From: Acidimicrobiia bacterium
GTDB lineage: Bacteria > Actinomycetota > Acidimicrobiia > IMCC26256 > PALSA-610
DNA length: 64,000 nt
Assembly (NCBI GenBank): GCA_036271555.1
Contig: DATBAK010000001.1
Span: forward strand, 1 to 64,000
Direction of reading: 5' to 3'
Each line of letters starts with the position of its first letter. The stretch's first letter is position 1. This document shows, piece after piece, positions 56,356 through 57,972 of the stretch. The notes under the pieces were generated by a model. That model saw nothing but the letters and a program-made list of their open reading frames with translations, did no database searches and had not been told where the DNA came from. The position numbers and the translations under genes were made by a program.

Positions 56356-56741
56356 CCCCCGAATCGTACGGGGGCGCCTTCGATCTGATCGAGAAAAGTG
56401 ACGCCCTCGCGTCATCTCACTCGATCAGGTCCGCGAAGCCCCCGGGCAGTTCGCTCCCGTGCGACCGAAGAAGTGAGCGAAGCGGCTCAGTAACCAGGGT
56501 CCCGGCCGCGGGTGCGGACGTTTCTGGGGCGGGCTGGGAGGCATTGCACGAACATCGGCCTCTGCTAGCGCAGTACCGATCTGCCGTGCCGCCCACGCCC
56601 ACGAACCGGAACCCCGGATCTGAGTCCCCCTCTCAGGGGTGTAACCCAGATGTCGGCGCACGGACCGCGCGACTTGAGCGATCTTCACCACTCTCCGCGA
56701 TCTTTCCCCTGTCCGAAATGCCGGGCTTCAGGGGAGAAGGG
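56356..56741. ncRNA. 386-bp hairpin-rich non-coding region (candidate structured RNA)
   Basis: No gene is convincing here. Five stem-loops can be drawn: 56385-56428 (CTGATCGAG/CTCGATCAG with inner TGACGC/GCGTCA), 56450-56481 (TTCGCTC/GAGCGAA), 56546-56589 (GCACG, ATCGG and CTGC nested with their complements), 56618-56651 (ATCTGAGT/ACCCAGAT with inner CCCCT/AGGGG) and 56705-56735. In the fourth, a pair that is A-C on the plus strand is a G-U on the minus strand, which favours a minus-strand transcript. No known riboswitch core was recognised. It could be the leader of the acyl-CoA ligase gene or an independent RNA. Confidence 0.35.
56705..56735 (-). terminator. Hairpin after the SAM hydrolase unit
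   Basis: TCCCCTG (56705-56711) pairs with CAGGGGA (56729-56735), seven bases after the stop of the 29-codon membrane frame. A GCCCGGC-type loop separates the arms; no U-run follows. Confidence 0.5.
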
Positions 56742-56831
56742 TCAATGGCCCTGGACGAAGAATTGGATCAGCGACGCCAGCAGGATCAAGACCAGGAGCC
56801 CCGCCAGCACGAACGCCGTGCCCCGCCTCAC
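56742..56831 (-). CDS. 29-residue single-helix membrane peptide
   Basis: GTG 56831 overlaps the stop of the SAM hydrolase gene (GTGA). The peptide starts VRRGTAFVLAGLLVLILLAS and continues as one hydrophobic helix ending FVQGH. The composition (basic start, about 20 hydrophobic residues) is that of a real membrane miniprotein, not of random high-GC frame. No homologue is known to me. A hairpin follows. Confidence 0.5.
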   Translation of the reverse strand: MRRGTAFVLAGLLVLILLASLIQFFVQGH

Positions 56832-57777: not shown

Positions 57778-57972
57778 TCAGCCGGCTTGCGTGTAGCGCG
57801 ACGCGAGATAGGCGTCGACGTCGAGCTCGGACACCCGGAACGAGCGCCCCACGCGAACGGCCGGCAGATCGCCCGCCTTGATGAGCCGGTACACCGTCAT
57901 CGACGAGACCCGCATCAGATCTGCCACTTCTTGCACCGTCAAGAAGCGCGCCTTGCTCAGCCCCTGCGCCAC
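57778..57972 (-). CDS. Small MerR/excisionase-type DNA-binding protein (BldC-like)
   Basis: 64 residues. FLTVQEVADLMRVSSMTVYRLIKAGDLPAVRVGRSFRVSELDVDAYL is a winged helix-turn-helix of the excisionase family (helix-turn-helix at residues about 11-35, wing VGRSFRV). This short type occurs next to proC in many actinobacteria and is related to BldC, which controls development. No integrase or attachment site is nearby, so phage excision is not indicated. It lies 103 bases after the proC start and may be transcribed alone. Confidence 0.85.
   Translation of the reverse strand: MAQGLSKARFLTVQEVADLMRVSSMTVYRLIKAGDLPAVRVGRSFRVSELDVDAYLASRYTQAG

Follow-up and report, generated by a model that had tools for sequence, protein, structure and literature searches.

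Between the genes for a SAM hydrolase and an AMP-binding ligase of an Acidimicrobiia bacterium lies a gene for a small structured RNA, which is, with near certainty, real and part of a family outside Rfam. As read from the sequence, the element is a minus-strand rod with an exposed C-rich strand and a CTCAAG-N15-GCCGATA promoter, and its place next to the SAM hydrolase gene is constant. With a probability of about 0.6, we take it to be an ancient small RNA (sRNA) gene of the WhiG/FliA regulon whose C-rich loop would pair with G-rich ribosome-binding sites, as in 6C/B11. The analysis started from a 64,000-nucleotide stretch of DNA (contig DATBAK010000001.1; here called the window).

The gap at 56,356 to 56,741 of the window has exact borders, formed by the ligase start (56,355) on one side and by the stop of a 29-amino-acid membrane-peptide frame on the other. 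This single-span frame (56742-56831, minus strand) has a GTGA overlap with the SAM hydrolase stop. Pfam searches of the neighbors returned SAM_HAT (the SAM hydrolase), AMP-binding (the ligase), HTH_17, P5CR, and a Rex-type domain, in agreement with the two neighbors named in the original prediction. A 64-amino-acid HTH_17 (excisionase/BldC-like) protein, encoded at 57778-57972 on the minus strand, is conserved beside the SAM hydrolase.

Both strands of the gap folded better than 100 of 100 dinucleotide shuffles (z = -5.61 for the minus and -4.20 for the plus strand), and the hairpin-rich character ascribed to it is therefore real. The gap is, however, a composite and not one element: besides the RNA, which takes up about 155 of its 386 bases, it includes a promoter, a hairpin resembling a terminator, and a dispersed repeat. 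Of the single region proposed originally, the structured RNA within it stands, while the hairpin at 56,385 to 56,428 is an unrelated dispersed repeat. Read along the minus strand, the 29-amino-acid frame is followed by the terminator-like hairpin, the promoter, a small hairpin, and the long rod (56497-56615), beyond which lie further short hairpins, the dispersed palindromic repeat (56385-56428), and the AMP-ligase start (56355). The features are as follows.

56742-56831, minus strand: 29-amino-acid membrane-peptide frame (VRRGTAFVLAGLLVLILLASLIQFFVQGH), read from the sequence; upstream border of the gap.
56706-56734, minus strand: hairpin CCCCTG...CAGGGG, from sequence and fold; probably the end of the SAM hydrolase transcript.
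56650-56678, minus strand: putative WhiG/FliA-type promoter, a pattern match with CTCAAG (56673-56678), 15 nucleotides, and GCCGACAT (56650-56657).
56488-56645, minus strand: predicted RNA, both ends approximate; fold z = -4.57, covariance model match at 56493-56619 (103.3 bits).
56590-56615, minus strand: 5' strand of the rod, GGGGUUCCGGUUCGUGGGCGUGGGCG, from alignment and fold.
56546-56589, minus strand: variable apical hairpin, from fold and covariation analysis.
56525-56542, minus strand: near-invariant unpaired C-rich strand GCCUCCCAGCCCGCCCCA; 17 of 18 columns identical in 20 of 20 sequences.
56497-56520, minus strand: 3' strand of the rod, CGUCCGCACCCGCGGCCGGGACCC, from alignment and fold.
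56385-56428, no strand assigned: dispersed palindromic repeat CTGATCGAG-n4-GTGACGC..GCGTCAC-n4-CTCGATCAG; found at 11 further places in the same genome.

A DNA search with a 405-base query against 61 genomes, the window's own included, gave matches in 40 of them (again counting the own genome). The matches fell into two parts, one order-wide (window about 56497-56622) and the other repeated within the own genome. The latter is a palindrome some 44 bases long that contains nested stems and a 4-base internal loop. At the sensitivity of this search it overlapped weakly and partially with only a few of the 60 relatives, and it does not belong to the RNA family. We also considered the RNA itself as a REP-like dispersed repeat and rejected this, since the own genome has one copy of the RNA and only the hairpin at 56385-56428 is repeated.

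The RNA core (minus strand, about 56,490 to 56,645) is predicted to form a rod that carries a variable hairpin at its apex and, in an internal loop, the near-invariant strand AGCCUCCCAGCCCGCCCC. Common to 20 loci from the DNA search are GATCnGGGGTTCCGG...GTGGGCG, the variable hairpin, AGCCTCCCAGCCCGCCCC, and CGTCCGC...GGCCGGAACCCC, and each of the 20 folds into the same kind of rod. For the resulting 33-pair structure, 91.4% of the cells were paired compared to 86.4% after shuffling, 11 pairs had changed on both sides (5.7 after shuffling), and the covariation score of 0.266 (0.174 after shuffling) was reached by none of 500 shuffles. Slid versions of the structure scored at most 0.095, a control that flatters the structure because it was picked from the same sequences. 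Helix cells of the 20-sequence alignment contained 124 G-U against 11 A-C combinations, which identifies the minus strand as the RNA-forming one; the G-U pair first noticed on the minus strand only is thus an instance of a general pattern.

Copies of the f26 type harbor an extra conserved apical GGGCACGUUC and a linker GUGUGAACGGAU. This second apical-loop motif was seen at L083-L091, L293-L311, L092, and L280-L286, and a pseudoknot between the linker GAACG and CGUUC is possible in many f26 copies. Copies in f61, a family outside the class, have a strong GC hairpin shortly downstream of the RNA. RNAalifold analysis of sequence-only alignments found two-sided changes in 2 of 14 pairs for the f26 type (covariation term +0.24) and in 6 of 16 pairs for f61 (-0.12); with few two-sided changes and small covariation terms, these alignments add little on their own.

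A covariance model (R1) was built from the 20 loci, and its training set includes the window's own match. Within the order, it detected the RNA in 44 of 58 genomes (24 outside the training set); within the class, in 61 of 395 (17 outside the order). In weaker matches the helices were unrelated, while the C-rich strand was kept in most. The exact 16-mer was present in 87 of 395 class genomes (2 with the reversed pattern) and in 21 of 396 genomes of a phylum sample (5 with the reversed pattern); by hand count, the latter sample included 11 of the 16 genomes of f61. All named records with the motif (24 contigs) are Acidimicrobiia, Actinomycetes, Actinobacteria, or Actinomycetota assemblies. G004, an f1 genome listed as 100% complete, is without the RNA.

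No Rfam family matched the window at the gathering score, and below it only chance matches (E of at least 4.6) were obtained. Rfam scans of two sets of loci from relatives (16 and 10, with two in common, hence 24 distinct ones) likewise returned nothing for the RNA element. Among the papers searched, none contained the motif letters and none joined Acidimicrobi, noncoding RNA, Rfam, and the motif. With covariation, homologs in two classes, and no match in Rfam, the proposal of a structured RNA outside the described families has held up.

Synteny was assessed by tblastn with the window's neighbors against the element loci. The element adjoins the SAM hydrolase, the ligase, or Rex at 88 of 114 distinct places, some f61 loci among them; judged by sequence, its place on the chromosome next to the SAM hydrolase gene is the same in two classes of Actinomycetota. 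Among the remaining 26 places, 16-mer matches with neither synteny nor promoter were rejected as chance (e.g., L123-L125, L152-L155, L167-L170, and those in f78 genomes); L091, L108, L159, L161, and L314 are probably real, with a promoter present by a looser rule. Relative to its neighbors, the RNA lies on the opposite strand in 72 of the 88 syntenic copies and on the same strand in 16, the window's included, and in most genomes it points towards the 3' end of the SAM hydrolase gene. This split indicates that the RNA gene with its promoter, or the neighbors, were inverted near this place more than once. Inversion of the RNA gene and promoter compared to most relatives was seen at L001, L005, L006, L008, L011, L099, L101, L102, L104, and L105, in more than one family.

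To define the promoter, we required CTCAAG, CTAAAG, or TTCAAG, followed after 14 to 15 bases by nnCGA or nnCGT agreeing with GCCGATA at 4 or more of 7 positions, in the stretch 60 to 260 bases upstream of the 77 syntenic non-CAP copies. This pattern was found in 64 of the 77 copies, compared to none on the other strand of the same stretch, none downstream on either strand, and 4 in 770 mononucleotide shuffles. All four f21 loci (L052, L053, L057, and L068) are among the 13 copies without a promoter by this rule. Across four whole genomes, the strict pattern occurred at 32 sites and its reversed version at 17. The promoter type fits the flagellar-clade consensus for WhiG, TAAA / GCCGATAA, as given in PMC8325347.

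A FliA_WhiG sigma factor scored above cut-off in 74 of 80 genomes searched, including all 44 that bear the element (the window's own, G000, among them), a count that ignores relatedness. The six genomes without this factor (G061, G076, G094, G100, G106, and G115) all lack the element, and 30 of the 36 element-less genomes still carry the factor. Downstream of some promoter-pattern sites we found a type IV pilin (N_methyl), a CheX protein, an EAL protein, and, by eye, a Flp-pilin-like frame; these sites were hand-picked from 30 loci and serve as illustration, not proof. A zinc-ribbon-like small frame (by eye) follows shortly after CTCAAG-N15-GCCGA at L176, L185 (another frame), and L190. Taken as a pattern-based assignment, membership of the RNA in a WhiG/FliA-type regulon is very likely.

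A tie to flagella was rejected since flagellin presence does not track the element: by hand count, the 16-mer occurs in 25 of 74 class genomes with flagellin and in 62 of 321 without it, and flagellin is absent from the window's own genome. Inspection by eye of the frames in 40 kb around the FliA-like frame of the window's contig showed no obvious flagellar genes. In six genomes (G001, G003, G005, G006, G016, and G021), the contig that carries the element also has flagellin genes, 24 to 41 kb away from it.

In families f4, f7, f8, f11, f17, and f18, the RNA lies in frame within the 3' part of a gene for a secreted CAP-domain protein; PF00188 was found in both CAP proteins tested. The promoter is located 450 to 760 bases upstream of the motif in 7 of 11 CAP genes, compared to 0 of 11 in the nearer stretch and 1 of 11 on the other strand. 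Synonymous sites in these genes are constrained just within the RNA. Mean third-position identity at conserved fourfold codons was 0.56 before (n = 18), 0.91 inside (n = 20), and 0.59 after (n = 10) the rod (Mann-Whitney, P = 5e-7 and 2e-5, with codons treated as independent and boundaries that were set after the values had been seen and match the ends of the rod).

Only a CAP remnant is left at L065, where the promoter lies 254 bases upstream, and promoter distances are 222 to 230 bases in f14 and 136 to 186 bases in f1. Together, this suggests that the CAP body was lost by deletion at these loci. Copies outside the order are stand-alone, so that either state may be the older one; in f16, CAP genes retain the promoter, and the motif has decayed. 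At L080, L088, L089, and L092 (f26, f29, and f30), a CAP-domain gene is located 2.1 to 2.6 kb downstream of the stand-alone RNA and is a possible source of the CAP fusion. At even odds, the RNA would be a regulator that predates the separation of the two classes and has been inherited at one locus, in the WhiG (c-di-GMP) regulon, passing between stand-alone sRNA and CAP 3' coding end under dual RNA and protein selection, with helices rewritten freely and about 17 loop bases that hardly change.

In 88 syntenic elements, the motif had a mean unpaired probability of 0.614, compared to 0.324 for the rest of the element and 0.361 for the motif with shuffled flanks; its value exceeded that of the rest in 82 of the 88 and that of the shuffled-flank control in 77. 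The C-rich strand includes CCUCC, the anti-Shine-Dalgarno core, and the loop carries CCUCCC. Searches for its complement with up to two mismatches (24 genomes) and for a 10-base complement 2 to 9 nucleotides before RTG (22 genomes) gave totals, with the element excluded, near those of reversed controls. One candidate target common to three genomes was discarded, as it lies inside a helicase-like coding region (protein name by eye). The idea that a peptide starts antisense to the C-rich strand was also discarded, since by eye no such start is present in the f26 and f61 sequences. The lack of a conserved complementary target may mean short and multiple targets or a protein partner, and pairing through the C-rich strand is perhaps the mode of action.

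According to PMC10470900, B11 represses via ribosome-binding sites by C-rich loops, and the 6C/B11 sRNA (RF01066) of mycobacteria and other actinobacteria is likewise a small structured RNA with unpaired C-rich segments. B11, as described there, has two C-rich loops, whereas the RNA studied here has one long mixed C-rich strand in the internal loop of a rod, and its WhiG/FliA-type promoter and CAP overlap set it apart from 6C/B11. RF01066 had no match in the window or its genome and none over cut-off in 21 genomes; with one unpaired internal-loop strand instead of two C-run hairpin loops, membership in 6C/B11 was rejected. According to PMC10578931, the sigma28-dependent sRNAs UhpU, MotR, FliX, and FlgO of Escherichia coli are small RNAs under a flagellar-clade sigma factor, as is predicted here, and derive from mRNA ends. 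Compared by description, the RNA reported here differs in being usually a stand-alone gene with a structure conserved across classes, and its hosts are often without flagellin. The regulon of the WhiG/RsiG c-di-GMP switch in Rubrobacter has the same promoter type before pilus and c-di-GMP genes; in the accessible part of that account (PMC8325347) it comprises protein genes only and the word "noncoding" occurs 0 times, so that an RNA member is new relative to it.

Several other readings were weighed. The RNA could be real and controlled by sigma-WhiG, with a C-rich strand that binds a protein (e.g., cold-shock, KH, or Rho) and not mRNAs. Seventeen nearly fixed bases across two classes with no conserved target detected, in a strand that is single-stranded, would suit this reading, but the CCUCC core argues against it, and we regard it as unlikely. 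The action of actinobacterial 6C/B11 C-rich loops on ribosome-binding sites, as reported in PMC10470900, also speaks against a protein partner. Far less probable is a second 6S-like RNA that titrates RNA polymerase: 6S RNA (RF00013) is similarly rod-like with a large internal loop, but RF00013 has no match in the window, the loop here is one-sided and C-rich, and the genome has a separate 6S gene elsewhere (62.6 bits, over cut-off, G000:C52).

The originally suggested leader of the acyl-CoA ligase, here extended to a cis leader or riboswitch of the AMP-ligase or to antisense control of the 3' end of the SAM hydrolase gene, is similarly improbable. In the window, RNA and ligase do share a strand, with the RNA upstream, and the direction of the RNA in most genomes would suit an antisense role. 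However, the RNA has its own promoter, its mostly opposite strand relative to the neighbors speaks against a ligase leader, and the occurrence of both orientations means that neither arrangement is required. We give the least credence to the idea of an element acting at the DNA level, or a relic of a CAP gene, that has no function as RNA. In the window's order, the 5' strand of the rod resembles CAP codons for DPGFRYVGVG, but the excess of G-U over A-C, the two-sided changes, the synonymous constraint confined to the rod, and the unrelated stems of copies outside the order all point to an RNA.

In the preferred reading, that of an sRNA acting on ribosome-binding sites, a FliA/WhiG-family sigma factor would transcribe the RNA together with pilus, chemotaxis, and c-di-GMP genes. 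The transcript would end in the rod followed by a pyrimidine-rich stretch or, in the family outside the class, at a separate strong hairpin. In some families, it would be made as the 3' end of the mRNA of the secreted CAP-domain protein, from the same type of promoter. As the least certain step, the exposed CCUCCCAGCCCGCCCC might block the translation of several mRNAs by pairing with their G-rich ribosome-binding sites, a mode of pairing modelled on the C-rich loops of mycobacterial 6C/B11.

If this is true, the WhiG/FliA (c-di-GMP) regulon of actinobacteria would gain an RNA output. The family would also illustrate clearly how the end of a coding gene and an sRNA gene can interconvert, with L065 as an intermediate, and the near-fixed loop, set against freely changing helices, would make the function testable by loop swaps.
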